Shown here piece by piece: positions 15,767-63,472 of a stretch of DNA of 64,000 nt. Numbering within the stretch: the first letter of the stretch is position 1; each line of letters begins with the position of its first letter. Made by a program: the position numbers and the translations under genes. The notes below the pieces were generated by a model, which was not told the DNA's origin, did no database searches, and saw only the letters and a list, made by a program, of their open reading frames with translations. The DNA comes from Streptomyces sp. NRRL F-2664 (GTDB lineage Bacteria > Actinomycetota > Actinomycetes > Streptomycetales > Streptomycetaceae): assembly GCF_000719345.1 (NCBI RefSeq), contig NZ_JOFX01000006.1:62001-126000 (forward strand), in the 5' to 3' direction.

Positions 15767-17413
15767 GTGGCGGAGGCCGACGGGGCCGAGGACGGCAAGC
15801 CCCGGTCCGACGAGGCGCACAGCGCCTTCACGCCGCCTCCCGGCATGGAGCCGGGCGTCCTCGACGACGACCGGCCCACCTCGGAGTTCGTGCGCCCGCC
15901 GAACACCGGGCCGGTCCCGTCCGAGCCGGAGGGATCGGCCTTCGCCGCTCCGGCGACCTACAGCGCGGCGCAGTCACCGCCCGCCCACACCCCCGGCCAG
16001 GGCTTCCCCGTCGCCCAGCTGAAGGACTCCCCCTGGCAGGACCGCATGCGCACGATGCTGCGCATGCCGGTCGACGTGCGCCCCGTGCCGGACCTGGTCC
16101 AGCGGCCCAGCGAGACGGGTCCCGCCGTCGGCCGCGTGCTCGACCTGACGCTGCGCATCGGCGAGCTGCTGCTGTCGGGCGGCGAGGGCTCCGAGGACGT
16201 GGAGGCCGCGATGTTCGCCGTCGCCCGCTCCTACGGGCTGGACCGCTGTGAGCCGACCGTCACCTTCACCATGCTGTCGATCACGCACCAGCCCTCGCTG
16301 GTCGACCACCCCGTATCGGCGAGCCGGACCGTGCGCCGCCGGGGCACCGACTACACGCGGCTGGCCGCCGTGTTCCGGCTGGTGGCCGACATCAGCTCGC
16401 CGGAGACCGACATCTCGCTGGAGGAGGCCTACCGGCGCCTGGCCGAGATCCGGCGCAACCGGCACCCGTACCCCACGTGGGTCCTCACGGCGGCCGCCGG
16501 GCTGCTCGCCGGAGCCGCCTCGGTGCTGGTCGGCGGCGGGGTGGTGGTCTTCCTCGCGGCCGCGCTGGGGGCGGTCCTGGGCGACCGGCTGGCGTGGTTG
16601 TGCGCCGGTCGCGGGCTGCCGGAGTTCTACCAGTTCGTGGTCGCGGCGATGCCGCCGGCCGCCTTCGGGGTGGCGCTGAAGCTCGCGGAGATCGAGGACA
16701 TCAAGGCGTCCGCCGTGATCACCGGCGGACTGTTCGCGCTGCTGCCGGGGCGGGCCCTGGTGGCGGCCGTGCAGGACGGCCTGACCGGCTTCTACATCAC
16801 CGCCGCCGCCCGGCTCCTGGAGGTCATGTACCTCTTCATCGGCATCATCATGGGCGTCCTCGTCGTGCTCTACCTCGGCCTCCAGCTGGGCGCCTCGCCC
16901 AAGCCGGAGGAGGTCCTGCAGATCACCCAGCGGCCGCTGGTGCAGATCGCCGCGTCGATGGCGCTGGTCTTCACCTTCGCCATCCTGCTCCAGCAGGAAC
17001 GCTCCACCGTGTGGATCGTGACCCTCAACGGCGCAGTGGCATGGGTGACCTTCGGGGCGCTGCACTACGCGGGCGGGATCCCGCCCGTGCCGTCCACGTG
17101 CATCGCGGCCGGGCTGGTGGGGCTCTTCGGGCAGCTGTTCTCCCGCTACCGCTTCGCTTCCGCCCTGCCGTACGTGACGGCCGCCATCGGACCGCTGCTG
17201 CCGGGCTCGGCGACGTACTACGGGCTGCTGCTGATCGCCGAGGACCGGCTCAACGAGGGCCTGGGCTCCCTGGTCAACGCGGCGGCCATCGCCCTGGCCA
17301 TCGCGATCGGGGTCAACCTGGGGTCGGAGACCTCCCGGCTGTTCATGCGGATCCCCGGGGCGGCGAGCGCCGTCAAGGGGCGCGCCGCCGCGAAGCGGAC
17401 CCGCGGCTACTGA
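15767..17413 (+). CDS. ThrE-like threonine/serine exporter family membrane protein
   Basis: 548 residues. A long hydrophilic N-terminus (about 125 residues, rich in Pro, Ala and acidic residues) is followed by the soluble ThrE domain (PF06738; LLLSGGEGSEDVEAAMFAVA near 140) and about ten transmembrane helices covering both ThrE/ThrE_2 halves (residues 230-525). The family exports threonine and serine in Corynebacterium; other substrates are possible. The GTG at 15767 follows GGGAGGAAGC. The last seven codons and the stop overlap the first copy of a 20-bp tandem repeat. Confidence 0.88.
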   Translation: MAEADGAEDGKPRSDEAHSAFTPPPGMEPGVLDDDRPTSEFVRPPNTGPVPSEPEGSAFAAPATYSAAQSPPAHTPGQGFPVAQLKDSPWQDRMRTMLRMPVDVRPVPDLVQRPSETGPAVGRVLDLTLRIGELLLSGGEGSEDVEAAMFAVARSYGLDRCEPTVTFTMLSITHQPSLVDHPVSASRTVRRRGTDYTRLAAVFRLVADISSPETDISLEEAYRRLAEIRRNRHPYPTWVLTAAAGLLAGAASVLVGGGVVVFLAAALGAVLGDRLAWLCAGRGLPEFYQFVVAAMPPAAFGVALKLAEIEDIKASAVITGGLFALLPGRALVAAVQDGLTGFYITAAARLLEVMYLFIGIIMGVLVVLYLGLQLGASPKPEEVLQITQRPLVQIAASMALVFTFAILLQQERSTVWIVTLNGAVAWVTFGALHYAGGIPPVPSTCIAAGLVGLFGQLFSRYRFASALPYVTAAIGPLLPGSATYYGLLLIAEDRLNEGLGSLVNAAAIALAIAIGVNLGSETSRLFMRIPGAASAVKGRAAAKRTRGY

Positions 17414-48837: not shown

Positions 48838-50940
48838 ATGAAGCCCCTGGAATCCGGAGACCCGATCCGCCTGGGCCCGTACCGTGTCCTCGCCGTCCTC
48901 GGCGAAGGAGGCATGGGCAAGGTCTACGTCGGCCAGGACGGCGAGGGACGCGCCGCCGCGGTGAAGGTGCTGCACCCCCACCTGGCGCACGACCACGACC
49001 TGGCCCGGCGGTTCGTCCGCGAGGCCCGCATGGCCGCCGCGGTCGGCGGCCCGTCCGTGGCCCGGGTCCTGGACGCCCGGACCGAGGGCGGACGGCCTTG
49101 GATCGCCACCGAGTTCCTGACCGGCCCGACCCTCTCCGACGCCGTACGCTCCCACGGCCCGCTCGACGAGCCGACCGTACGGGCCCTCGCGGCGGCCCTC
49201 GCCGGGGCGCTGCGCGACATCCACGCCGCGGGCCTCGTCCACCGGGACCTCAAACCCGCGAACATCGTGCTCACCGCGGCGGGCCCGCGCGTCATCGACT
49301 TCGGCATCGCCCGCCCCGAGCACGGCCTCACCCTCACCACCACCGGCCAGGTCCCGGTCACCCCCGGCTACGGTGCGCCCGAGCAGGTCCTCGGGCAGCG
49401 CGTCGGCCCGGCGGCCGACGTCTTCTCCCTCGGTGCGGTCCTGGTGTACGCGGCGAGCGGGCTGCACGCGTACCAGGGTTCGCACGTCGCCGCCGTGCAG
49501 TACGAGGTCGTGCACGGGGAGCCGCGCCTGGACCGGGTACCGCCCGCGCTCCGGCCGCTGATCGCCCCGTGCCTCGCCAAGGACCCGGCGTCCCGGCCGC
49601 TGCCGGACCGGATCGTCCTCTCGGCCGCGCCGCCCCGCGGTGCCGAACGCGCCTGGCGGCACGGCGCGATCGCGCAGGACATCGCGGCCCGGGAGCACGG
49701 CCTGCGCCGGCTGACCGCCGTACCGGGCGGGGTCGCACCGCGCCCGCTCTCCCGGCGCCGACTGCTGACGGGCCTGGCGGCCGGCGGGTCCGTGCTGGCG
49801 GCCGGCGGGGGTGCCGCGGCCTGGTGGGGCCTGGCGAGCCGTTCCGGCGGTGACCCCTTCGACCTTCCCCCGGCCGTGCGGACGCCGGAGGGCAGGATCC
49901 TCGACGCGAAGAAGGGCGACTACGTCCTGGGGGAGACTCCCGCGCCGCTGTGGAGCGTCGCCTCGGCCGTCTCGGCCGACACGCCCGCGCCCCTGCCCGT
50001 ACGGGACGTGGTGATCGTCGCGGCGCCGGAGGGCGGCATCGCCGCGCGCAGCGTCGTCGACGGCACACTGCGGTGGACGGCGGCGGACGCGGTGGCGACC
50101 AACCGCTATCTGTCCCTCTCCGACCGGCTGGTGGCCGCCACGGACGGCGACGGGAGACTCGTGACGTTCGTCGCCTCGACCGGGAGGCCCAGGTGGACGG
50201 CTCCCGCGGAAGCCGCATGGCTCCTCGCCGCGGACGACGAGGCCGTCTACCTGGTGACGAAGGACCGGCGCGTGCGCAGCGTCGGACGCGCCGACGGCAG
50301 GATCCGCTGGACCGTCGGCGTGGGCGCCGACCTCGGCACGAAGGCCGCCTCGCGCGGCCTGGCGGCCCAGGGCCGACTCGTCGTCACGGCGGCGGACGGC
50401 AGTGTCGTCGCCCTCGACACCGCCGACGGCCGCACGGTCTGGGACCTCCGCGAGCAGTCCGCCGGCGGCCGGGCCATGGTCGCCCTGTCGGGCCGCACGC
50501 TGTGCGTGAGCGGGAAGAACCTCTCCGCCGTCGACGTCGTCGACGGCAAGCAGCTCTGGTCTGCCGAGAACCCGAAGCCGGCGGACGGGACGCCGGTCTC
50601 GTGGGGCCCGCCGACCATCCACGGGGACCACGTCTACGCGAGCGTCCTGACCTCCCCCCTCCGCCTCGACCTGCGCACCGGCCGGGGAACGGACTGGGCC
50701 TACCAGCTCCTGTTCGAGTGCGATGCGCCCAGCCCGCTCGTCGTCCAGGGCAACGGACTGTGGTCCGTCGCCGTCAACAGGACGGAGGGGGGCGTCAACG
50801 TCGTCGACCTGTCGGCCGAGGGCAGGACGTCGTGGGTGTTCCGCATCATCAAGAACCCCGACCGCTACTGGATCACGGCAGACGCGAACCGCGTGTTCCT
50901 CCTCGACGGCACGACCCTCGCCGCCCTGCCCGTGTTCTGA
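48838..50940 (+). CDS. Ser/Thr protein kinase with PQQ-like repeats
   Basis: 700 residues. Kinase motifs are intact: GEGGMGKVYVGQ near 22, AAVKVL near 41, HRDLKPANIVL near 138 and DFGIARP near 157. A membrane segment (about 307-328, after RPLSRRRLLTG) separates it from an extracytoplasmic propeller domain (350-700) with WTAADAVATN-type repeats. It begins 27 bases after the preceding kinase and shares its layout, so the two are probably old duplicates and cotranscribed. Phosphorylation targets are unknown; the adjacent type VII machinery is one possibility. Confidence 0.93.
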   Translation: MKPLESGDPIRLGPYRVLAVLGEGGMGKVYVGQDGEGRAAAVKVLHPHLAHDHDLARRFVREARMAAAVGGPSVARVLDARTEGGRPWIATEFLTGPTLSDAVRSHGPLDEPTVRALAAALAGALRDIHAAGLVHRDLKPANIVLTAAGPRVIDFGIARPEHGLTLTTTGQVPVTPGYGAPEQVLGQRVGPAADVFSLGAVLVYAASGLHAYQGSHVAAVQYEVVHGEPRLDRVPPALRPLIAPCLAKDPASRPLPDRIVLSAAPPRGAERAWRHGAIAQDIAAREHGLRRLTAVPGGVAPRPLSRRRLLTGLAAGGSVLAAGGGAAAWWGLASRSGGDPFDLPPAVRTPEGRILDAKKGDYVLGETPAPLWSVASAVSADTPAPLPVRDVVIVAAPEGGIAARSVVDGTLRWTAADAVATNRYLSLSDRLVAATDGDGRLVTFVASTGRPRWTAPAEAAWLLAADDEAVYLVTKDRRVRSVGRADGRIRWTVGVGADLGTKAASRGLAAQGRLVVTAADGSVVALDTADGRTVWDLREQSAGGRAMVALSGRTLCVSGKNLSAVDVVDGKQLWSAENPKPADGTPVSWGPPTIHGDHVYASVLTSPLRLDLRTGRGTDWAYQLLFECDAPSPLVVQGNGLWSVAVNRTEGGVNVVDLSAEGRTSWVFRIIKNPDRYWITADANRVFLLDGTTLAALPVF

Positions 50941-50971: not shown

Positions 50972-51643
50972 TCAGACGCGGAAGGGCGGCTGCGGCCAGC
51001 GGTGCGGGCGGTACGGGGCCCACCACCAGAGGTCGCCGACGCCGACCAGGAGGGACTCGGCGGCCAGATCGGCCCGGACGGACGGGACGAGTCCGTCGGC
51101 CGTCGGGGCCGCCCGGACGGCCTCCACGCCCGCCAGGTAGTCCGGTTCGTCGATCACGATCCGGTTCAGCACGCCGGACCGGTGGTCACGGATCTCCAGG
51201 AAGCCGGGTCCCCTGCGGACGACGCACTTGCCGAGGAAGAAGCCCTCGGCCCAGGCCGCCCGCAGTTCCGCCGCGTCGGCGGGCCCCTCGATCCCCGACG
51301 GCGGGTAGAGGTGGCTCAGCGTGAACGCCGAGGGGCCGGACCGGCAGGACCCCGCCTCGGGCAGGCGCACCCGCCAGTCGACGACGACGCCCCACGCGGT
51401 CAGCTCCCGCAGCAGGTTCAGGAGGCGTACGGCGCACAGCGGAGCGGCCGCGGGAGACAGGTCCACGAGGGCGCCGAACTCGGCCCGCCGTACGCCCGTG
51501 CGGTACAGCTCCCGGGCGATGTGCGCCGCGTCGGCGCAGGCGTCGGCGACGGCGACGCTGCCGAGGTGCATGCCCGGCAGGGTCCGCGCATGGTCCCGGT
51601 AGTCCCGCCACAGGTCGATCACGGGCTTGCGGGCGGCGATCAC
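50972..51643 (-). CDS. DUF5825 protein of the radical SAM RiPP operon
   Basis: 223 residues from the GTG at 51643, which overlaps the radical SAM stop by four bases (GTGA). The protein begins MIAARKPVIDLWRDYRDH and resembles the DUF5825 family, found with RiPP-maturation radical SAM enzymes as I recall. No cofactor motif is visible. Co-translation suggests a dedicated partner of the enzyme, for example a substrate-binding or second-step protein. A long in-frame reading extending to 53527 is a shadow of the radical SAM gene. Confidence 0.82.
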   Translation of the reverse strand: MIAARKPVIDLWRDYRDHARTLPGMHLGSVAVADACADAAHIARELYRTGVRRAEFGALVDLSPAAAPLCAVRLLNLLRELTAWGVVVDWRVRLPEAGSCRSGPSAFTLSHLYPPSGIEGPADAAELRAAWAEGFFLGKCVVRRGPGFLEIRDHRSGVLNRIVIDEPDYLAGVEAVRAAPTADGLVPSVRADLAAESLLVGVGDLWWWAPYRPHRWPQPPFRV

Positions 51644-53553
51644 GAGGCGTCCTCGTACGCGGGGCCGGGGATCCGGGCGAAGTCCCGGGTCAGGTCGGGC
51701 GCGGAGCCGCCGAGACGGGTCAGCTCCGCGTTGGTGCCGAGGGGTACGACGTGGACGTACCGGCCGGCGTCCTCGTAGAGGAGCCCGGCCTCGCCCCACT
51801 CCGCGAGCAGTTCGGCGACCCGGGACGCGCAGACGCTGCCGGTGAACCGGGCGCTGAGCCGGTGGGTCAGCGACTGGAGGCTGCGGGGGTCCTCCAGGAG
51901 GCGGAACGCGGCCACCTCGACGGGGTCGGTGATGCTGCGGGTCGTCCAGTCGAAGTCCTCCCGCCGGTTGGTCAGCACGATTCTCGATCCGATGTCGTAG
52001 CGGGTGAGGCTGCTGTGGAGGTGCAGGTCGCGCCACCGCTCGACGGCGGCGCCGAGCTGCTTGGCGAGGGTCTCGTCGATGCCGGCGTGCGGGGCGTCGA
52101 AGAGGTAGGCCAGGTCGTGGAGCTCCGCCTCGGGCAGGTCGTGGACGATCGCGTAGTGGGAGGCCGGGCGCAGCGGGGCGAAGCCCAGCTCCGGCCGGTC
52201 GAAGTACGGGCTGAACCGCTCGATCTCGATGCGGGTGACGCCGTCCGGCGGGGTGAGGTGGGCGAGGGCGGGCAGTTGCCGGATCACCTCGGTGTAGTCG
52301 CGCTCGCGCTCGCCCGGGAAGCCGTACAGGTAGTTCCACGTGGCCCACAGGCCGGCCGACTGGGCGTCCCGCAGGTGGCGTACGTTCTGGCAGCCGGTGA
52401 CGCCCTTGTCCATCAGCCGCAGGACCCGGCTGCTCAGGCTCTCGATGCCCGGCTGCACCTGGACGAGGCCGGCGTCGGCGAGGGTCTTGAGCTGGCGGTA
52501 GCGGAGGTTGGACTTGATCTCGTAGTGGAAGCGCAGGTCGTGGCCCTGCTCGATCAGGGCGGGCAGCACGCTGCGCAGGTATCCCATGTCGAGGATGTTG
52601 TCGACGACGAGGATGTCGAGCACCTGGTGGCGCCGGGTCTGTTCCGCGATCTCCTGCAGGAACGTCTCGGGCGCCTTGCTGCGGAAGGCCATCGAGGATC
52701 CGTTGAGCCCGCAGAACGTGCAGTGGTGCTTCTCGCCCCACCAGCAGCCGCGCGATCCCTCCAGCACCAGCTTCGGCTCGATCCGGGAGCATGCCGCGGA
52801 CGTCTGCACGCGGTGGAAGTAGGGCCGGTAGTCCGGCTGCCTCAACTCGCCGGGCGGCAGCGGGAGGCGGGTCATCGCGTTCGCCCGGTGGGCCCCGTCC
52901 CCGGTGCGCCAGCACAGTCCCGCGACCGTGGCCGGGGCCGTCCCGCCGCGGACCACGTCGAGCAGGGCGGGGAACGCCCGCTCCCCCTCCCCGCGCACGA
53001 CGAAGTCGACGGCGGGGAAGTTGCGGTGCAGGGCGGCGCCCTGTGGTCCGTCGCAGTTGGCGCCGCCGAGCACCGTGACGGTGCCCGGCGACAGCCTCTT
53101 GACCGCCGCGGCTGTCGCCAGCGCGGCCGTGTTCTGCTGGAACGTGGTGGTGAAGCCCACCACGTCCGGCCGGGTGTCGGCGATCCTCGCGGCCAGTTCT
53201 TCGACGAACCGCCCGGACGCCTCGTGCAGGGCCAGGCACACGGCCCGCAGGTGCGGGCTGAGCCCCTGCGCCATCTGCTCCTCGAATGCACGCACCCGCC
53301 ACGACGGGACACCGTGGAGGGCGCTGGAGAACACCCAGTCCCCATAGCCTTCGAAGTACGCGTGGCTGGCGAAGAACTCGTAGTCCTCGACGCTCAGTCC
53401 GATCGCTTCCGCCGCCCAGTCGTAGAAGTCCAGGTTGGCGTTGACCGTCTCCACGTCCGCCCGGTGGGAGCGGCCGACGGAATGCAGGATCCCCAGAGCG
53501 AGGGACGGCGTGTCCAAGGAGGCCCACGGCATGTTCACCAGAATCACACGCAT
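51640..53553 (-). CDS. B12-type radical SAM RiPP-maturation enzyme (rSAM_ocin family)
   Basis: 637 residues from the ATG at 53553. The N-terminal region (about 1-200) has the fold of a cobalamin-binding domain (MRVILVNMPWASLDTPSLAL, then VGFTTTFQQN and VLGGANCDGP). The radical SAM cluster motif is the unusual CX7CX2C, GCWWGEKHHCTFCG at about 267-280, typical of the RiPP maturation radical SAM C-methyltransferase family. A C-terminal region of about 200 residues follows. The expected chemistry is methylation of unactivated carbons in a peptide. The 35-codon peptide gene lies 25 bases upstream. Confidence 0.92.
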   Translation of the reverse strand: MRVILVNMPWASLDTPSLALGILHSVGRSHRADVETVNANLDFYDWAAEAIGLSVEDYEFFASHAYFEGYGDWVFSSALHGVPSWRVRAFEEQMAQGLSPHLRAVCLALHEASGRFVEELAARIADTRPDVVGFTTTFQQNTAALATAAAVKRLSPGTVTVLGGANCDGPQGAALHRNFPAVDFVVRGEGERAFPALLDVVRGGTAPATVAGLCWRTGDGAHRANAMTRLPLPPGELRQPDYRPYFHRVQTSAACSRIEPKLVLEGSRGCWWGEKHHCTFCGLNGSSMAFRSKAPETFLQEIAEQTRRHQVLDILVVDNILDMGYLRSVLPALIEQGHDLRFHYEIKSNLRYRQLKTLADAGLVQVQPGIESLSSRVLRLMDKGVTGCQNVRHLRDAQSAGLWATWNYLYGFPGERERDYTEVIRQLPALAHLTPPDGVTRIEIERFSPYFDRPELGFAPLRPASHYAIVHDLPEAELHDLAYLFDAPHAGIDETLAKQLGAAVERWRDLHLHSSLTRYDIGSRIVLTNRREDFDWTTRSITDPVEVAAFRLLEDPRSLQSLTHRLSARFTGSVCASRVAELLAEWGEAGLLYEDAGRYVHVVPLGTNAELTRLGGSAPDLTRDFARIPGPAYEDAS

Positions 53554-53578
53554 GTGCGGAGCAGCCCTCCGGCCTTTC

Positions 53579-53686
53579 TCAGAGTCCTTCCGCCGCAAGG
53601 GTCCTGCGCACGCCGATGACGTCCGTGCCGGATCTCTTGCCCGCAGCCATCGCGCGTGGGTCGCTGACGATGGTGGTCTTCTTCAC
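53579..53686 (-). CDS. Candidate RiPP precursor peptide (35 residues)
   Basis: A short gene too small for ordinary gene finding. GTG at 53686 follows ACGGGGATCAAA, and the TGA ends at 53579. The peptide starts MKKTTIVSDPRAMAAG, passes KRSGTDVIG and ends VRRTLAAEGL. It is highly charged at the N-terminus, has no Cys, and is placed exactly where a precursor is expected: 24 bases after the SARP stop and 25 bases before the radical SAM start, on the same strand. Codon third positions are mostly G or C. I do not recognise a family. Core and leader boundaries cannot be set from the sequence. Confidence 0.65.
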   Translation of the reverse strand: MKKTTIVSDPRAMAAGKRSGTDVIGVRRTLAAEGL

Positions 53687-53710
53687 TTTGATCCCCGTCC
53701 GTTTCCGTGG

Positions 53711-56700
53711 TCAGTGGAGCGGTTGCAGAACCGGAACTCTAGGCAGGGTCACTACCGGATTCCTTCCGGTCACTCTGCGTGCAACCTGGGCGAGGATCGA
53801 CGTGATGCGGTGGGCGGGTGCGGGCGTGCCGATGCAGGCGGACAGTTCGGTGAGCTCCCTGCGCAGCACCTGGCCGGCCGCCCGGTCCTCGGCGTCGAGC
53901 GCCCGGCACAGCAGCTCGACGGCGGAGAGCAGGACGTGGTGGACGGGCTCCGCGCCCAGCAGCCGGATCGACTGGGCCAGCCGGTCGACGGCCCGGTCGA
54001 TGTGTCCGTCGGCGAGCTCCAGCGAGGCCAGGACGTAGAAGAGCTCGCCCATCCCGAACTCCAGGTTCATGTCCCGCAGGACGGCGTGCCCCTCCTCGAT
54101 GAACCGCCGGGCGGACGGATCGCGCAGCTCCAGCAGACTCAGGCCGAGGGTGAGTCCGCTGAACGCCTCGTACGGGCGGTCCCCCAGCTCGTGGAAGGCC
54201 GCGAGGGCGGTCTCCGCCTTCTCCCTCGCCTCCTGCAACTCCCCCCGGTGGCGCAGCACGACGGCCCAGTGCCGCAGCGCCAGGGCCTCCTCGCGCCGGT
54301 TGCCGGCCTGCCGGCTGAGCCGGACCGCATCCTGGAAGGCGGCCGAGGACAGCTCCCAGCGCCCCTGCTCGTAGCGGATCGTGCCCAGTTCGCGGGCGGC
54401 CAGCGCCTGCGCCAGCCGGTCGGCGCAGTCCCGTGCCACCCCGGCGGCCCGCGTCACCTCGGTGAGGGCGGGGCCGAGCCGCCCCAGCGCCCGCAGCGCC
54501 CCGGCCCGGATCACCAGGCACTCGCTGCGCAGGGCGTCGATGCCCAGCTCCTCGAAGACGGCGGCCGCCCGGTCGACGAGCTCCAGCCCGGCCTCGGGGT
54601 CCCGGCGGATGCACCGCAGGGACGCCAGCCTCAGGGACATGACGCCGACACCGAGGGTGTCGCCGTCGGCCTCGGCCGCCGCCAGGGCGAGCCGGTGGCC
54701 GGCCTCCCAGTCGTCGTAGAGGTGGCGCAGCTCCAGGAAGTCGGTCGTGCTGTCGGCCAGTTCCCACGCGACCCGGCCGAACCCGTTCGAGCAGGCCATG
54801 GCGACCGCGGACGCCAGGGCCGGGCGCTCCGCCTCGAACCACAAGTAGGGGTCCTCGACGATGTAGTCGACGTCGGACCGGTCGAATCCGTCGTAACGTT
54901 TCGCCACTCCCTGCGCGGCGGCCGGCCATCCCTGGGAGCGCTCACCGCTGATGCGCTGCGCCGCCGAGGCGGACAGGGTGAGCCACCCGTCCAGCACCCT
55001 GGCGAGCGCCTCCCGGCACTGTTCCCGCGAGTATTCGGCCTGCGCCCGCTCCCGGGCGTAGAGCCGGACGAGGTTGTGATAGCGGTACCGGGTCTGTCCG
55101 GCGACGTCGCATCCGATGACGTCCAGGAGCTGGGTGCTGACGAGTTCCTCGATCAGGTCCTCGGCCTCGTCGATGGTGATGCGCAGCAGCGGCGCAAGTA
55201 ACCAGGAGGCGAAGTCGGGCGCGTCGATCAGACCCAGGAGGCAGAACGCCTCGCGTTCGCGCGGCCCCAGCTCCTGGTAGCCGGTCGCGAGGGTGGCCCG
55301 CACCTCCAGGTCCCCGGAGACCAGGACGTCCAGGCGCCGCCGCTCGTCGGCGAGGCGGCGGGCGAAGCGGCTGATGCCGCCCTGGGAGTGCTGGGCGAGC
55401 CGGGCGGCCGCGATCCGAACGGCGAGGGGCAGGTACCCGCACAGCCGGGCGATCTCCGCCGTGGTCGCCTCGTCCCCGGCGACCCGGTCCCGTCCGGCGA
55501 TGCGTTCGATCAGGGCCCCGGACTCCTCCGCGTTGAACACGTCGAGGTCGACGTGGGTGGCGGATTCCAGGCCGGTGAGCCGCGGCCGGCTGGTGATCAG
55601 TACGACGCAGCCGGGCGAGCCGGGGAGCAGCGGTCTGACCTGCGCCTCGCTGACGGCGTCGTCGAGCAGGATGAGCATGCGGGAGGAGGCGGTCCGGCTG
55701 CGGAAGAGTTCGCTGCACTCCTCCAGGTCGTCCGGGATGCCCTCCTCGCCGACGCCGAGCGCGCGCAGGAAGCGTTTGAGCGCCACCAGGGGGTCGAGCG
55801 GCCGGGTGTCGGCCGTGCGCAGGCGTATGTACAGCTGCCCGTCGGGGAACTGCTCGGCCACCCGGCGCGCGGCCTGCACGGCCAGCGTGGACTTGCCGAC
55901 CCCGCCCTTGCCCGAGAGGGCGACGAGCGCCAGGGACTCCTTGTCCCCCGACGTCAGGGTGTCGCGGATGCGGCCGACCTGGTCGGCGCGTCCGGTGAAG
56001 TCGGCTATCGAGGGCGGGAGCTGCGCCGGCACCACCGGGACGATGGGCGACCACAGGCGCTCGGGTGCCTCGGCGGCGCTCTTGCGGGGCAGGTCGAGGC
56101 CGGGACCGCCGACCAGGATCGCCTCGTGGAGGCGTTGCAGCTCGCTGCCCGGCTCCAGGCCGAGTTCGTCGGCGATCAGGGTGCGCCCGGCCTGGTAGAC
56201 CGCGAGCGCGTCGGCCACCCGGCCGCAGCGGTAGAGCGCCAGCATCAGCTGTCCGCGCAGCCGCTCCCGCAGGGGCTGCTCCCCCACCAGCGCCTTGAGT
56301 TCGCTGACGAGTTCGCCGTGCCGGCCGAGCGCCAGCTCCGCCTCGATGCGCTCCATGAGGACGCCGATGCGGCGCTCCTCCAACGCCGGCGACTCGGTCC
56401 GTATCAACTCGTCCGTACCGTCGGCCAGTGGCTCCCCCCGCCACTGGGCCAGGCCGGTGCAGTACGCCTCCACGGCGTCGAGTTGACGCTCCTGTGCGAG
56501 CGCGGCCCGCGCGTCCGCGACCGACCGGTCGAAGGTGTGCAGGTCGAACCGGTGCCCACCGAGCTGGAGGCGGTAGCCGTTGCCGGATCTGATGATCAGG
56601 TCCGGCCCCAGCTCGCCGCGCAGTTGGGACACGCACTTCTGGATCTGGGCCACGGCGGTCGGCGGTGGCGATTCCCCCCACAGGATCGCGACCAGTCGTT

Positions 56701-56833
56701 CCACCGGGACGACGTGTTCGGAGCGGAGCAGCAACGCGGCGAGCACCGATCTGGTCTTGCGCCCGTTGAGTTTGACTGCGAGTCCGTCACGCCATGCCGT
56801 GATCGGCCCGAGAACACGGAACTCGAATGTCAC
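53711..56833 (-). CDS. AfsR/SARP-type transcriptional activator (BTAD, NB-ARC, TPR)
   Basis: 1040 residues. An OmpR-like winged helix (about 1-95; FRVLGPITAWRDG) and a BTAD domain (about 100-245) make the SARP core. An NB-ARC ATPase follows (about 285-560; Walker A GKGGVGKST near 308, LILLDDAVSEA near 385), then TPR-like helical repeats to the end. Large SARPs of this type switch on antibiotic clusters. It leads the minus-strand peptide/radical SAM operon (24-base gap to the peptide gene) and is divergent from the N-hydroxylase/NRPS operon. Candidate binding repeats lie 91 bases upstream. Confidence 0.95.
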   Translation of the reverse strand: MTFEFRVLGPITAWRDGLAVKLNGRKTRSVLAALLLRSEHVVPVERLVAILWGESPPPTAVAQIQKCVSQLRGELGPDLIIRSGNGYRLQLGGHRFDLHTFDRSVADARAALAQERQLDAVEAYCTGLAQWRGEPLADGTDELIRTESPALEERRIGVLMERIEAELALGRHGELVSELKALVGEQPLRERLRGQLMLALYRCGRVADALAVYQAGRTLIADELGLEPGSELQRLHEAILVGGPGLDLPRKSAAEAPERLWSPIVPVVPAQLPPSIADFTGRADQVGRIRDTLTSGDKESLALVALSGKGGVGKSTLAVQAARRVAEQFPDGQLYIRLRTADTRPLDPLVALKRFLRALGVGEEGIPDDLEECSELFRSRTASSRMLILLDDAVSEAQVRPLLPGSPGCVVLITSRPRLTGLESATHVDLDVFNAEESGALIERIAGRDRVAGDEATTAEIARLCGYLPLAVRIAAARLAQHSQGGISRFARRLADERRRLDVLVSGDLEVRATLATGYQELGPREREAFCLLGLIDAPDFASWLLAPLLRITIDEAEDLIEELVSTQLLDVIGCDVAGQTRYRYHNLVRLYARERAQAEYSREQCREALARVLDGWLTLSASAAQRISGERSQGWPAAAQGVAKRYDGFDRSDVDYIVEDPYLWFEAERPALASAVAMACSNGFGRVAWELADSTTDFLELRHLYDDWEAGHRLALAAAEADGDTLGVGVMSLRLASLRCIRRDPEAGLELVDRAAAVFEELGIDALRSECLVIRAGALRALGRLGPALTEVTRAAGVARDCADRLAQALAARELGTIRYEQGRWELSSAAFQDAVRLSRQAGNRREEALALRHWAVVLRHRGELQEAREKAETALAAFHELGDRPYEAFSGLTLGLSLLELRDPSARRFIEEGHAVLRDMNLEFGMGELFYVLASLELADGHIDRAVDRLAQSIRLLGAEPVHHVLLSAVELLCRALDAEDRAAGQVLRRELTELSACIGTPAPAHRITSILAQVARRVTGRNPVVTLPRVPVLQPLH

Positions 56834-56923
56834 TCAGCTCCCTTCTGATCCCGTCCGCCCTTACGCGGCAACGGGACACCGCCCCCACCTGATGACCTGC
56901 GCCTGTGGACGATACCGCACGGT

Positions 56924-56953
56924 CGGAAGCCCGGCGGAAGCCAATCGGTAGCG
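56924..56953. promoter_or_regulatory. Candidate SARP binding site: three direct repeats at 11-bp spacing
   Basis: CGGAAGCC begins at 56924, CGGAAGCC at 56935 and CGGTAGCG at 56946, an exact 11-base period (one helical turn). SARPs bind such direct heptamer-type repeats just upstream of a -10 box. The site lies between the divergent SARP and 69-residue peptide genes. Confidence 0.7.
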
Positions 56954-57004
56954 GTGAGTGAAAAGCTCATTACATCCCGGACGCCGACGGAAGCTGCAGT
57001 TCAA

Positions 57005-57214: not shown

Positions 57215-57266
57215 CCCAGCCGGCATGCCGACGGCATGCCGTGCCATTCAACTTTGGAGGATCAGC

Positions 57267-58604
<1,338 letters not shown>

Positions 58605-58615
58605 GAGAGACGATC

Positions 58616-59995
58616 ATGCAGACGCTCGAAGCGAGCTCACCGAGACCGGCTGTCGACCTCACCCGGCCCGGACCCAACGGCCGTGTGCTGCTCGACAGCC
58701 AGGCCGCCACCGAGTCCAACGCCCGCACCTACCCGCGCCGGATCCCGGTCGCGATCGCCGAGGCCTCCGGGTCCCACATCACCGACGTCGACGGCCGCCG
58801 CTACATCGACTTCCTCTCCGGCGCGGGCGTCCTCGCGCTGGGCCACAACCACCCGGAGCTGGTCGCGGCCGTGACCGCTCAGCTGCCGAAACTGACGCAC
58901 GGCCTCGACTTCCCGACCCCGGTGCGCGACGAGTTCAAACGCCGGCAGATCGGGATGCTCCCGGAGAACATCCGGGACGACTACAAGATGCACTTCTGCG
59001 GTCCCACCGGCTCCGACGCCGTCGAGGCCGCGATCAAGCTGTGCAAGAAGGCGACCGGCCGCGGCCAGGTCGTCGTCTTCCAGGGGGCCTACCACGGCTC
59101 CACCCAGGGCGCCATGTCCCTGACCTCGGAGCACGCGCCGAAAACCGGTCTGCACAACCTGCTGCCCGGCATCCACTTCACCCCCTACTCCTACTGCCAT
59201 CGCTGCCCCGTCGGCCTGGCTCCCCAGAACTGCAGCACCAACTGCGCCGAGGTCCTGGTCAACACCCTCACCGACACCCACGGCGGGGTGCAGCTGCCGG
59301 CCGCGATCATCATGGAGCTGGTCCAAGGCGAGGGCGGCGCCATCCCGGCCCGCCGGGAGTTCGTCCACCGGGTCGCCGACACCGCTCGAGAGCTCGGCAT
59401 CCCGCTGATCGTGGACGAGGTCCAGACCGGCTGCGGCCGTACCGGCACCTGGTTCGCCTTCGAGCAGTACGGCATCACACCCGACGTCGTCGTGGCCTCC
59501 AAGGGCCTGTCCGGGATGGGTCTGCCGGTCGCCGCCATCCTCTACCGCAAACACCTGGACACCTGGACGCCCGGCAGCCACATCGGCACCTTCCGCGGCA
59601 ACAACCTCGCCTTCGCCAGCGCCAACGCCTTCCTGGACGTCGTCGAGCGCGAGGACCTGCTCGCCCACGTACGCAAGATCGGCGACCACCTGCTCGGCGA
59701 GCTGACCCTGCTCGGCGACAGCCCGCTGGTCTCCGACGTACGCGGCCTCGGCCTCATGCTCGGCATGGAGATGGCCGCCGCCGGGACGGCCGACGCCACC
59801 GGCGTCGCCGCCAGGTTCCAGCAGGAGGCACTGCGCCGGGGCCTGATCGTCGAACTCGGCGGACGGGGCGACAGCGTCGTGCGACTGCTGCCGCCGCTGA
59901 ACATCACCGTCGAGATCGCCGACGAGGCCGTGGCGATCCTGCGCGACGCCCTCACCACGCTGGAGGCGGAACTCGCCGCGGAGGCCGGCCGATGA
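58616..59995 (+). CDS. Diaminobutyrate-2-oxoglutarate aminotransferase (class III, PLP)
   Basis: 459 residues. It converts aspartate 4-semialdehyde and glutamate to L-2,4-diaminobutyrate. The class III fold is clear: FLSGAGVLALGHNHPE near 67, HFCGPTGSDAVEAAIKL near 124, the cofactor-contact DEVQTGCGRTG near 268 and the PLP Lys in ASKGLSGMG near 300. A Cys-rich loop (YCHRCPVGLAPQNC near 193) is typical of the DAB aminotransferase branch (EctB/DdaB/PvdH-like). The ATG at 58616 follows GAGAGAGACG. It is coupled to the next gene by an ATGA overlap. Confidence 0.92.
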   Translation: MQTLEASSPRPAVDLTRPGPNGRVLLDSQAATESNARTYPRRIPVAIAEASGSHITDVDGRRYIDFLSGAGVLALGHNHPELVAAVTAQLPKLTHGLDFPTPVRDEFKRRQIGMLPENIRDDYKMHFCGPTGSDAVEAAIKLCKKATGRGQVVVFQGAYHGSTQGAMSLTSEHAPKTGLHNLLPGIHFTPYSYCHRCPVGLAPQNCSTNCAEVLVNTLTDTHGGVQLPAAIIMELVQGEGGAIPARREFVHRVADTARELGIPLIVDEVQTGCGRTGTWFAFEQYGITPDVVVASKGLSGMGLPVAAILYRKHLDTWTPGSHIGTFRGNNLAFASANAFLDVVEREDLLAHVRKIGDHLLGELTLLGDSPLVSDVRGLGLMLGMEMAAAGTADATGVAARFQQEALRRGLIVELGGRGDSVVRLLPPLNITVEIADEAVAILRDALTTLEAELAAEAGR

Positions 59996-60810
59996 GCACC
60001 CTCGTGTCCGGACGGGCCGGCCGCCCGCCGCGCATCGGCATCGTCAACCTGATGCCGAACGCGGAGCAGTACGAGAACTGGCTGATGCCGCAGCTGTCCC
60101 TGTCGGGACCCTTCGAACTGCAGTGGATCAGGATCTCCTCCCGCCGCTACCGCCTCGACGACCCGGCCCGCATCGCCGCGACGTACCGCACCTACCAGGA
60201 GGCCACCGCGGACGCACCGCTGGACGGCCTGATCGTCAGCGGCGCGGCGGTGGAGCACCTCCCCTTCGAGGAGGTGCGGTTCATGGACGAGCTGAACGAC
60301 ATGGTGCAGGACGTCCACGCGCAGGGGTCGCCGCTGCTCGGCCTGTGCTGGGGCGCGATGGGTGTGGGCCACCTGGTCTACGGGCTGCCCAAGGACACCT
60401 ACTCCGAGAAGATCTCGGGGATGTACGAGACCGAGCTGCTGGCGCAGGACGGTCCCATCGCCTCCGCCCTCGACGACCGCTTCTGGTCCACGCACAGCCG
60501 CTTCGCCGGCTTCGACGACAAGGCACTGGACGCCAGCACCACGGTCCGGGCACTGGCGCGGGCCGAGGGCGCGGGCACGGTCATCGCCGAGTCCTACGAC
60601 CACTCCGTGCTGATGCACACCGGCCACCCCGAGTACTACGGCTCGCGCCTGGCCGAGGAGTACCACCGGGACGTGGGCCAGCAGGTGGCGGGCGTACGGG
60701 CACCGGTCGGCGTGGACCTGGACCGGCCGCTGCGGCTGTGGCGCAGCCACAGCCTGGCGTTCTTCGCGAGCTGGGTCCGGCTGGTCGGCGACCAGTCGGC
60801 CGCGCGGTAG
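59992..60810 (+). CDS. Homoserine O-acyltransferase (MetA-like) of the NRPS cluster
   Basis: 272 residues from the ATG at 59992. The MetA class I glutamine-amidotransferase-like fold is clear: RIGIVNLMPNAEQYENWL near 15, the nucleophile Cys in GLCWGAMGVGHLVYG near 116, and a conserved Tyr-Asp-His and HPEYYGSRLAEEY region near 206. MetA enzymes acylate homoserine with succinyl- or acetyl-CoA. It is slightly shorter than E. coli MetA (309). Streptomyces normally use MetX for methionine, so a MetA inside a secondary-metabolite operon probably makes an activated homoserine-type building block. Confidence 0.88.
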   Translation: MSTLVSGRAGRPPRIGIVNLMPNAEQYENWLMPQLSLSGPFELQWIRISSRRYRLDDPARIAATYRTYQEATADAPLDGLIVSGAAVEHLPFEEVRFMDELNDMVQDVHAQGSPLLGLCWGAMGVGHLVYGLPKDTYSEKISGMYETELLAQDGPIASALDDRFWSTHSRFAGFDDKALDASTTVRALARAEGAGTVIAESYDHSVLMHTGHPEYYGSRLAEEYHRDVGQQVAGVRAPVGVDLDRPLRLWRSHSLAFFASWVRLVGDQSAAR

Positions 60811-60826
60811 AGGACGGGGAGGACCA

Positions 60827-62137
60827 GTGTCACCACAGTCACCCCTGTCCCCCGTGGCCCCCGTGGCCGATGTGGCCCCCGTGACCGCGACCGGCCCCAC
60901 CGGGCGGCCCCTGCGCCCGGTGGTGTGGAAGTTCGGCGGCTCCTCGGTGGGCGACATGGACCGGCTGCGCCGGGTCGCGCAGCGCCTGGTCGATGCCAGG
61001 CGCGCCGGCGCGGACGTCGTCGCGGTCCTGTCCGCGATGTCGGACACCACCGACGACCTGCTGGAGATGGCGAACGTCCTGACGGCGCAGCCCGACGCTC
61101 GGGAGCTGGACGCGCTCCTGGCGGTGGGCGAGTCCATGTCGTGCGCCCTCGCGGCGATCGCCGTGCACGAGCTGGGCGAACGTGCCGTCTCCCTGAACGG
61201 CCGCCAGGCCGGTGTGCTGACCGACACCGCGCACGGCAACGCCCGTATGCAGTCGATCGACCCGCAACGGATCGTGGCGGCCCTGGAACAGGGGCTGATC
61301 GTGCTGGTCACCGGCTACCAGGGCGTCACCGACGACGGTGACGTCACCACCCTGGGCCGCGGCGGCTCGGACGCCTCGGCCATCGCCGTGGCGGCCGCGC
61401 TCGGCCTGCCCGAGTGCGACATCTGGACCGACGTGCCCGGCGTCTTCACCGCCGACCCCCGGGTGGTCCCCGACGCACGGCGCCTGGACCGGCTCAGCCA
61501 CGAGGCGATGCTCCAGCTCGCCGAGGCGGGCGCCCAGGTGATGCAGCCGCGCGCGGTGGAGCTCGCGGCGGCGCACGGCGTCGCCATCCACGTCCGCTCC
61601 TCGTTCACCGGCGAGCCGGGCACCTGGATCACAGAAGGCAGGGAGGACAACGACATGTTCGAGACCGCCAGGATCACCGGCGTCGCCCACCGTCGGCACG
61701 ACCCGCTCTACCAGGTCGACGGCCTGACGCCGGCGCAGGTCTCGGCGGCGCTCGCCGGCCACGGCCTGCCCGTCGGCTCCATCATCGGCAGCCCGGGCGA
61801 GCTCCGCTTCACCTCGCCCGGCGCCGAACCGCAGGCGGTCATCGCCGCCCTCGGCGACATAGGCGCCGCCGTCGCGGTCCACGACGAGGACCTCGGCAGT
61901 GTGAGCGTGGCCGGGGACGCCTGCGGCAACCGGTCCGAGGTCACCCTGCAGATCCTCGAATCGCTGGAGCGCACCGGGATCCGCCCGGTGCTGGTCACCA
62001 GCACCCCCAGCCGGGTCTCCTGCCACGTCGCCTCCGGCGCGGTCGACGAGGCCGCCCGGGTCCTGCACAGCGCCTTCGGCCTGCACACCGACGCTGCTGC
62101 CGCGCCGCAGCCCGTCGGCGCGGGACGAGCCAACTGA
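60827..62137 (+). CDS. Aspartate kinase of the NRPS cluster
   Basis: 436 residues from the GTG at 60827, after GGGGAGGACCA. It phosphorylates aspartate, feeding aspartate semialdehyde, homoserine and diaminobutyrate. Motifs: WKFGGSSVGDMDRL near 29, TTLGRGGSDASAIA near 173, DIWTDVPGVFTADPR near 198 and VMQPRAVELAAAHG near 237. Two ACT domains occupy about 275-420. The N-terminus has an extra 25-residue Pro/Val/Ala stretch before the kinase core. As a second copy inside a cluster it may be less sensitive to lysine/threonine feedback; that is inference. Confidence 0.92.
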   Translation: MSPQSPLSPVAPVADVAPVTATGPTGRPLRPVVWKFGGSSVGDMDRLRRVAQRLVDARRAGADVVAVLSAMSDTTDDLLEMANVLTAQPDARELDALLAVGESMSCALAAIAVHELGERAVSLNGRQAGVLTDTAHGNARMQSIDPQRIVAALEQGLIVLVTGYQGVTDDGDVTTLGRGGSDASAIAVAAALGLPECDIWTDVPGVFTADPRVVPDARRLDRLSHEAMLQLAEAGAQVMQPRAVELAAAHGVAIHVRSSFTGEPGTWITEGREDNDMFETARITGVAHRRHDPLYQVDGLTPAQVSAALAGHGLPVGSIIGSPGELRFTSPGAEPQAVIAALGDIGAAVAVHDEDLGSVSVAGDACGNRSEVTLQILESLERTGIRPVLVTSTPSRVSCHVASGAVDEAARVLHSAFGLHTDAAAAPQPVGAGRAN

Positions 62138-62149
62138 GAGGGCGGGAGC

Positions 62150-63472
62150 ATGACCACCACGCAGGCGCGTGAGGACACCGCGGGCCGACGCGGCGTCCTC
62201 GCCAACCGGGACTTCGTCAAACTCTGGAGCGGGCAGACGGTCTCGCTCGTCGGCTCACAGGTGACCGACATCGCGCTGCCGCTGGCGGCGGTCATCACCC
62301 TGAACGCCAGCGCGTTCCAGATCGGCCTGCTCAATGTCGCCAGGTTCGCCCCGTACGTACTGGTGACTCTGCTGGCCGGAGTCTGGTTCGACCGGCGGCG
62401 CAGGCGGCCGACCCTGATCGCGGCCGACGCGGTCCGGGTGCTGCTCATCGGCGCCCTGCCGCTGGCGCACCTGCTCGGCGTGCTCTCGCTCCCGTGGCTC
62501 TACGCCGTCGGGTTCCTGGCCGGCGTGGCGACGGTCCTGTTCGATGTGGGGATCCTCTCCTACATCCCGGGACTCGTCGACAAGGACGACCTGGCGGACG
62601 CGAACAGCAAGATGACCGCCAGCTACTCGGTGGCCGGTATCGCCGGCCCCGGCCTGGCCGGCTTCCTCGTCGGCGCGCTGACCGCGCCCGTCGCGCTGAC
62701 CGTGGGAGCCGCCACCTACCTGGCCTCGGCCCTGGCCCTGTGGTGGATCCGCAGGCCCGAGGCCGAGCCGGAGCAGCCCGCCGAACGCACGTCGGTACGC
62801 GCCGACATCGTCGAGGGCCTGCGCACCGTGGTCGGCAGCCGCATCCTGCGGCACCTGGCCACCCAGTCGGCCGTGTTCAACCTCTTCGAGAACGTCATGA
62901 CGACCGTCTTCCTGGTGTACGCGGTCAGGACACTGGACCTCAGCCCGTTCCAGCTCGGCCTGGTCGTCGGCGCCGGCTCGGTCGGCGCGCTGCTCGGCGC
63001 GACGTTCTCCGGACGGATCAGCAGGCGCCTGGGCTTCGGCCCGGCGCTGCGCCTGGTCACGCTCCTGGCCTGCCTGTCGCCCGTACTGCTGCTCGTACCC
63101 GGCGACAAGGGCCTGCTCTCCCTGCTGGTGCTGGGCGCGACCCTGGCCGTGCACGGCTTCAACCTGGCCGTCTTCAACGTCAACTCGCTCACCCTGCGCC
63201 AGACCGTGACACCGGCCCGCCTGCTGGGGCGGATGAACGCCAGCTACCGCCTCATCCTCTACGGCACCATCCCGCTCGGCGCCCTGCTGGCCGGCTCGCT
63301 GGCCTCCGTGTTCGGGCTCCGCACCGCCCTGGCCGCCGGCGTCGCAGGCATCGTGCTGCCGGCCGCGTGGATCACCTTCTCGCCCGTCTACCGGTTGCGC
63401 GAGATGCCACAGGGCCCCGAAGAAGCCGAGCCGGCCACAAGCGTCGCGCCGTCACGCGCGGCCGAGTCGTGA
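62150..63472 (+). CDS. MFS exporter of the NRPS cluster
   Basis: 440 residues with about twelve transmembrane helices. It fits the MFS_3/EntS-like branch used to export siderophores and peptides: NRDFVKLWSGQTVSLVGSQV near 20, the RRRRRPTLIAADAVRVLL loop near 82 and a central hydrophilic loop (about 200-225) between the two halves. It begins 12 bases after the aspartate kinase stop, with GAGGGCGGGAGC upstream of the ATG. It probably exports the NRPS product. Confidence 0.9.
   Translation: MTTTQAREDTAGRRGVLANRDFVKLWSGQTVSLVGSQVTDIALPLAAVITLNASAFQIGLLNVARFAPYVLVTLLAGVWFDRRRRRPTLIAADAVRVLLIGALPLAHLLGVLSLPWLYAVGFLAGVATVLFDVGILSYIPGLVDKDDLADANSKMTASYSVAGIAGPGLAGFLVGALTAPVALTVGAATYLASALALWWIRRPEAEPEQPAERTSVRADIVEGLRTVVGSRILRHLATQSAVFNLFENVMTTVFLVYAVRTLDLSPFQLGLVVGAGSVGALLGATFSGRISRRLGFGPALRLVTLLACLSPVLLLVPGDKGLLSLLVLGATLAVHGFNLAVFNVNSLTLRQTVTPARLLGRMNASYRLILYGTIPLGALLAGSLASVFGLRTALAAGVAGIVLPAAWITFSPVYRLREMPQGPEEAEPATSVAPSRAAES

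Follow-up and report, generated by a model that had tools for sequence, protein, structure and literature searches.

A predicted RiPP precursor gene in a SARP-linked branch of clavusporin-type loci in Streptomyces sp. NRRL F-2664

The precursor gene and the enzyme pair

The window, that is, the whole 64-kb stretch of DNA analyzed here, contains a set of minus-strand genes that, in the order of transcription, encode a large SARP regulator, a short predicted precursor peptide, a B12-binding radical SAM enzyme and a DUF5825 protein. The features of this locus are as follows.

50972..51643, minus strand: DUF5825 partner (PF19142), 223 aa, 199 bits with a cut-off of 25; overlaps the end of the radical SAM gene
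51640..53553, minus strand: B12-binding radical SAM C-methyltransferase (TIGR03975), 637 aa, profile score 594 bits with a cut-off of 282
53579..53686, minus strand: gene best read as that of a RiPP precursor, 35 aa; GTG start, leader motif, position and neighbors
Peptide residues 1-10 (MKKTTIVSDP): predicted leader/recognition motif
Peptide residues 17-28 (KRSGTDVIGVRR): segment identical in the four closest loci
Peptide V23-I24-G25-V26: predicted core start
53711..56833, minus strand: large SARP regulator with BTAD, NB-ARC and TPR regions, 1040 aa, identified by domain profiles
53736..53769, minus strand: predicted SARP operator and promoter, CCGGAAG-N4-CCGGTAG-N10-TAGAGT, inside the 3' end of the SARP gene
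56923..56951, plus strand: predicted second SARP operator, TCGGAAG-N4-GCGGAAG-N4-TCGGTAG, with an 11-bp pitch, between the SARP gene and the divergent gene

The short ORF lies in the 157-nt gap between the SARP and radical SAM genes (53554-53710), with its GTG 24 nt from the SARP stop codon and its own stop codon 25 nt from the ATG of the radical SAM gene (53553). A GGGGA sequence is located 5 nt 5' of the GTG, and the GC content at codon positions 1/2/3 is 0.60/0.57/0.83. The GTG start, the 35 codons, the gap, the two spacers, the ribosome site and the GC-rich third position had all been pointed out in a sequence-only reading which proposed a new RiPP precursor, and all were found again here. 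The 35-aa translation, MKKTTIVSDPRAMAAGKRSGTDVIGVRRTLAAEGL, includes neither Cys nor aromatic residues, in agreement with the same reading; a sactipeptide or lanthipeptide precursor, for which core Cys is required, was accordingly rejected. No Pfam or NCBIfam model matches this peptide. A clavusporin-type relative peptide likewise has no match in Pfam, and the 26 protein-database relatives of the latter are unnamed or annotated as hypothetical or uncharacterized. Judging from its coding features and its conservation, the ORF is a real gene, most plausibly that of a RiPP precursor, an assignment backed by the conserved leader motif, the position and the adjacent enzyme pair.

The radical SAM enzyme contains the CX7CX2C motif (C270, C278 and C281), and its structure model (pLDDT 85.6) matches the cobalamin radical SAM enzymes OxsB, TsrM, TokK and CysS, TokK also being the best sequence-profile match (E 1.5e-14). 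It shares with the TIGR03975 RiPP maturation enzymes a profile score over the cut-off and this structural likeness but differs from them in belonging to a DUF5825-paired branch with a 35-aa precursor. In the model, the C-terminal part (about residues 516-601) consists of three strands, three helices and a hairpin and looks faintly PqqD/RRE-like; the Pfam PqqD match in this protein (E 0.008) is under its cut-off. For the DUF5825 protein, which is encoded directly downstream (model pLDDT 91), no PDB match was detected by sequence profile (E <= 0.1) or by Foldseek comparison of its fold with solved structures (best E 0.058), so that no mechanism is claimed for this partner, whose predicted fold is possibly new. 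The gene convergent with the DUF5825 gene (48838-50940, plus strand) encodes a Ser/Thr kinase fused to a PQQ-type beta-propeller and, as read from the sequence, is preceded by a similar-looking kinase/beta-propeller gene.

The SARP protein is identified by its BTAD domain (PF03704, 147 bits with a cut-off of 22), the N-terminal Trans_reg_C match (23 bits) remaining below the cut-off of 26.2. The genome encodes 11 SARP-like matches at E <= 1e-30, this SARP included.

The leader motif and the SARP-linked clade

A paper on clavusporin (mpc) by Zhang, Li, Overton and Seyedsayamdost (Nat Chem Biol 2025) reportedly describes clavusporins as surfactants that promote development. According to the accessible parts of the respective publications, the B12-rSAM/DUF5825 pair C-methylates amino acids in clavusporins (PMC12257519), and the clavusporin leader is removed by the oligopeptidase MpcP (PMC12951456). 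We identified 533 relatives of the radical SAM enzyme in species-representative genomes and analyzed the best 80 of these together with two plasmid loci. The usual gene order in the relatives examined is MFS transporter, prolyl oligopeptidase, precursor, radical SAM and DUF5825. The same order is found on the Streptomyces clavuligerus plasmid pSCL4 (NZ_CP016560.1, 487348-502204), in a locus whose gene content indicates that it is likely the clavusporin locus and whose radical SAM enzyme is 56% identical to that of the window.

The window peptide starts with the motif M-x-K-x-x-[IVF]-x-x-[DN]-P. This motif, with a stop codon after a further 15-45 residues, was searched for in the 900 bases before each radical SAM gene and the first 60 bases of the gene itself. 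Within the best 80 of the 533 relatives and the two plasmid loci, 80 loci were evaluable, L067 and L072 being cut by contig ends, and the motif is present upstream of 74 of these 80 radical SAM genes. Of 1790 other windows taken from both strands of these loci, 1 contains the motif, and none of the 80 antisense windows does; this control gauges specificity rather than serving as a blind test, since the motif was written after the sequences had been seen. In the whole 64-kb window, the motif is found solely at the precursor ORF. The single control match, located directly 3' of the DUF5825 gene in L030, is probably a real precursor. This locus encodes two precursor-like peptides with a Tyr near the end (L030:8805, plus strand, and L030:5140, minus strand; MKKDVVHDDPKGKANKPYRMVLVYK and MKKTIVHGDPKKQGSESSKVVYPYRPHQD, respectively), one after the DUF5825 gene and the other upstream on the other strand.

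A motif peptide upstream of the enzyme was not found in six of the 80 evaluable loci (L020, L025, L026, L030, L040 and L051). In L026, N is read at the place of the motif; L030 has the two motif peptides elsewhere in the locus; no motif peptide was found in L025; and L020, L040 and L051 instead encode a different small protein after DUF5825. This Actinomadura protein (L040:8400-8800, L051:8400-8800 and L020:3500-3920), with the C-terminal sequence ...GIRVD[VI]VRDDID[AT]PHERDWGI[GA], may be another type of precursor.

Given the presence of the motif in 74 of the 80 related loci compared to 1 of 1790 control windows, the window peptide is not a new kind of precursor; it belongs to a branch that has diverged within the clavusporin type. 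The novelty claimed in the sequence-only reading thus holds for this branch only: the enzyme pair has already been reported for clavusporins, as seen in the available portion of PMC12257519, and the leader motif is common to most of the related loci. The same reading had named loss of the frame in close relatives as the outcome that would speak against a precursor; in all six nearest relatives, an open frame of the same kind is retained, with 35-36 codons, a GTG or ATG start and 26-34 nt between its stop and the radical SAM gene.

In a tree of 83 radical SAM sequences, the window and these six loci (L001-L006) form one clade with an SH-aLRT value of 100, in a quick tree in which long branches meet near this clade. 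The peptides of the clade have M1, K2, K3, T4, T5, I6, P10 and I24 in common. A SARP homolog, 55-94% identical over about 1040 residues, is encoded directly upstream in all six clade loci besides the window. An MFS exporter or a prolyl oligopeptidase was found in none of the six within about 6 kb on each side (L005 is on an 8-kb contig), and neither an MFS transporter nor a prolyl oligopeptidase (MpcP) was found upstream in the window locus. Among the 70 non-clade loci with at least 4.4 kb of upstream sequence, drawn from the best 80 of the 533 relatives and the plasmid loci, the oligopeptidase is present in 63, the MFS transporter in 61 and both in 61; seven (L025, L030, L040, L043, L051, L080 and L083) have neither. 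Outside the clade, a SARP is encoded directly upstream in only one of the 70 loci, L083, and SARP-like genes that are not directly upstream are found in L017, L019, L037 and L066. L083 (L083:5566-5928, on a plasmid of Streptomyces sp. NBC_01450) encompasses an NB-ARC-TPR SARP, two precursors with V-rich hydrophobic ends, the radical SAM enzyme and DUF5825, with no POP or MFS upstream; its radical SAM enzyme and SARP are 51% and 33% identical to those of the window, respectively.

The nearest homolog of the oligopeptidase in the genome of the window is 41% identical and looks like a housekeeping enzyme, considering its neighbors, which, as read from the sequences, appear to be SURF1, asd, aspartate kinase and recR genes; a dedicated POP elsewhere in the genome was therefore rejected. 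The radical SAM enzyme itself is present in 99 of the 392 genomes of the genus (E <= 1e-50). A profile of the seven precursors strongly matches 2 of these 392 genomes and 2 of 296 relatives, in overlapping sets, the matches being the genome of the window and G042, which corresponds to L001 in contig and position; both are themselves rows in the profile. Weak, partial matches in three other genomes of the genus, G155, G245 and G137, with E values from 5e-4 to 1e-2 and in one case a stop, were attributed to chance. By these profile searches, the SARP-linked variant is rare, and the seven clade loci amount to roughly three lineages since four of them are close relatives.

Thus, the window locus shares with clavusporin (mpc) and pSCL4 the B12-radical SAM and DUF5825 genes and a short precursor directly upstream with the same N-terminal motif, and differs in the replacement of the MFS transporter and prolyl oligopeptidase by a SARP, and in the predicted SARP operator. 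Biphenomycin-like clusters, as far as the accessible text of PMC12257519 describes them, also include the B12-rSAM/DUF5825 pair, there with a second B12-rSAM, but have an MNIO and YHxYxY precursors, whereas the genes identified beside the window locus include no MNIO.

The peptides differ as well. The seven clade peptides were compared with 70 peptides from 68 other loci, again from the best 80 of the 533 relatives and the plasmid loci. The best 10-residue hydropathy after residue 10 is 1.02 in the window peptide and 0.50-1.26 in the clade, compared to a median of 1.67 and a minimum of 1.14 in the others; the net charge is +4 and +2 to +6, compared to a median of -6 and a range of -10 to +4; and the number of V, I and T in the richest 10 residues after residue 10 is 5 and 3-5, compared to a median of 6 and a minimum of 4. 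Relative to the V/I/T-rich hydrophobic core of the relatives, the window core is thus below their minimum in hydropathy and at their maximum in charge, with the V/I/T count within their range. The peptides of the clade appear clearly more basic and less hydrophobic, even though the ranges touch. The sequence [VI]G[VI] is present in the core of all seven clade peptides and of 49 of the 70 others. By contrast with pSCL4, the window peptide has no Pro before the core, where 52 of the 70 others have xP[SGTAK][VIM], plausibly the oligopeptidase site.

The whole peptide evolves faster than its enzyme, as indicated by the comparison of the window with L002 (pS 0.148 and pN 0.115 for the precursor; pS 0.212 and pN 0.059 for the radical SAM gene). 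The precursors of L005 and L006 differ by 6 synonymous and 11 nonsynonymous changes, and selection over the whole peptide looks weak from such counts. Among the four closest loci, residues 17-28 show no nonsynonymous and 0-2 synonymous differences per pair, all of these being small numbers.

Predicted operators and the divergent genes

According to the parts of the literature available, reported SARP sites are direct repeats of heptamers separated by 4 bp, and several of these sites are located 8 bp upstream of the -10 element; the main operator of PimR consists of three such repeats, CGGCAAG (accessible text of PMC5930380). The sequence close to the end of the SARP coding region resembles these sites and includes a -10-like hexamer at 53736-53741, which lies 49 nt upstream of the GTG of the precursor gene. 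The pattern CCGGAAG-N4-NNGG[AT]AG-N10-TANNNT begins 75-89 nt before the precursor in all seven loci, including the distant L004, L005 and L006. The strict pattern occurs once in the 7.98-Mb genome of the window and once in each of the genomes of the six relatives, always before the precursor, and the reversed control pattern is absent from all seven genomes, a uniqueness that is partly by construction because the pattern was read from the same seven loci. In a scan of the window that allowed two mismatches, one further match was detected (56934-56967), as part of the triple copy described below, with 0.05 expected in all.

The SARP coding sequence is unusual at this end: the AT content at third positions of the last 25 sense codons is 0.44, compared to 0.067 in the rest of the gene, with no 25-codon stretch above 0.44 and 4 of 1016 reaching this value. 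In L001-L003, the respective values are 0.40-0.48 compared to 0.060-0.072 elsewhere in the gene. The last 20 SARP codons are 0.82 identical compared to 0.69 overall, which is not counted as evidence.

A triple repeat, the predicted second operator, is located upstream of the SARP gene and is present as NNGGWAG in all seven loci; on its divergent side, no clear -10 was found at the same spacing. Outside the clade, a scan of both strands of 74 genome loci (954 kb, from the best 80 of the 533 relatives) gave two occurrences of the relaxed double repeat. In the genome of the window, there are 5 copies of a narrower double repeat, 3 of them at this locus, compared to 9 occurrences of the reversed control, so that the double repeat alone is uninformative and the information lies in its place, spacing and conservation. 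A fourth repeat match in the window (17146-17162) was set aside as it is inside a membrane-protein-like frame. Compared with the PimR operator, as given in the available text of PMC5930380, the predicted sites share the heptameric direct repeats, the 4-bp spacers and the presence of three repeats at one operator. They differ in the repeat sequence (NCGGAAG/NCGGTAG rather than CGGCAAG) and in the position of one operator within the coding sequence of the regulator; the distance from the repeat to the -10-like hexamer is 9-10 nt here versus the 8 reported for other SARPs.

Beyond the second operator, the plus-strand genes of the window (57264-63472) encode a Lys/Orn N-monooxygenase, a class-III (diaminobutyrate-type) aminotransferase, a homoserine O-succinyltransferase-like protein (59992-60810), an aspartate kinase and an MFS transporter, which together look like a pathway to an N-hydroxylated compound derived from diaminobutyrate. 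The first divergent gene is the same, by sequence, in L001 and L003. In contrast, L002 has ATP-grasp and aminotransferase genes, L004 has a 5-aminolevulinate-synthase-like gene and TauD, L006 has an NRPS, and the divergent side of L005 contains an NRPS-like frame (recognized by reading only, with no profile scan). The SARP module hence adjoins unrelated pathways.

A proposed pathway and its alternatives

The open frame, the conserved leader motif, the clade, the gene replacement and the operator pattern are best explained by a variant of the clavusporin-type RiPP pathway that is under SARP control, to which we assign a probability of about 0.8. We infer the following course of events, from SARP binding to the biological role of the product. 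The SARP would bind the 11-bp-spaced direct repeats close to the end of its own coding sequence, thereby switching on the promoter 49 nt before the precursor, yielding one transcript for the precursor, the B12-radical SAM enzyme and the DUF5825 protein; co-transcription, like the methylation that follows, is expected by analogy. The first ten residues of the peptide (M-x-K-x-x-I-x-x-[DN]-P) would serve as the recognition leader, and the enzyme and its DUF5825 partner would probably methylate unactivated side-chain carbons of a short aliphatic core. Carbon methylation had been judged plausible in the sequence-only reading (at Val, Ile, Thr, Leu or Arg), and the leader motif, the gene position and the enzyme pair speak for it. 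The most likely sites, which are guesses, are perhaps Val23, Ile24 and/or Val26, proposed since, within the core, [VI]G[VI] is what has been retained from the other branch. As the exporter and the prolyl oligopeptidase are not adjacent, leader removal and export would be left to other proteins of the cell, or else the peptide might stay intracellular.

Several other explanations were considered. One of these, a degenerate or non-coding remnant or else a regulatory upstream ORF, would be compatible with the few codons and with the weak purifying selection over the whole peptide, but is exceedingly improbable given that the open frame and the leader motif are retained in 7/7 loci, at enzyme identities down to 66%, and that the four closest loci differ in residues 17-28 by synonymous changes only. 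A product of the usual clavusporin kind, i.e., a hydrophobic, methylated surfactant peptide that aids aerial growth, is suggested by the same enzyme pair and leader motif, the identity to the S. clavuligerus plasmid enzyme and a V/I/T count within the range of the 70 other peptides. This is nevertheless quite unlikely: the hydropathy of the window peptide is below the minimum of the others and its charge far from their median, with the caveat that the clade ranges overlap theirs, and no exporter or POP is found at the window locus.

The peptide could also be a co-regulated partner of the divergent pathway, as a second product or a scaffold, considering that the other operator of the SARP faces mostly biosynthetic genes and that the triple repeat is conserved in 7/7 loci; this is unlikely, however, because a constant module is accompanied by divergent pathways that are unrelated to one another, and the divergent side shows no clear -10 at the same spacing. 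Finally, the modified peptide, instead of being secreted, might remain in the cell and serve the NB-ARC-TPR part of the adjacent SARP as a ligand or feedback signal. The adjacency of SARP and precursor in 7/7 clade loci and the absence of exporter and protease genes from the flanks examined are consistent with such a role, as is the distant L083, where an NB-ARC-TPR SARP also precedes two precursors with no POP or MFS upstream. SARP-like genes are numerous, though, with 11 in this genome alone, and the L083 peptides keep V-rich hydrophobic ends, so that a role of this kind appears improbable. Along the same lines, and as a distinctly speculative suggestion, a C-methylated peptide might be a private, protease-resistant signal sensed by its own SARP, in a SARP-peptide switch attached to several unrelated pathways via the divergent operator.

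The enzyme pair had already been reported for clavusporins; the predicted SARP-type operator and promoter are new here. The sequence-only reading had not noted this operator, the SARP in place of exporter and protease, or the altered core. A SARP-linked branch is not described in the accessible parts of PMC12257519 or PMC12951456, and the primary clavusporin paper may already list such loci. If read as a SARP-controlled variant of the clavusporin-type pathway, the locus would extend the very young family of B12-rSAM/DUF5825 peptides to more basic substrates, and the split between leader and core would offer a handle for probing the role of DUF5825. A SARP with a predicted operator that is defined in sequence and occurs once per genome would be a directly testable genetic switch and, if it is true that the peptide feeds back on the SARP, the peptide would be a ligand for the TPR domain of a large SARP.
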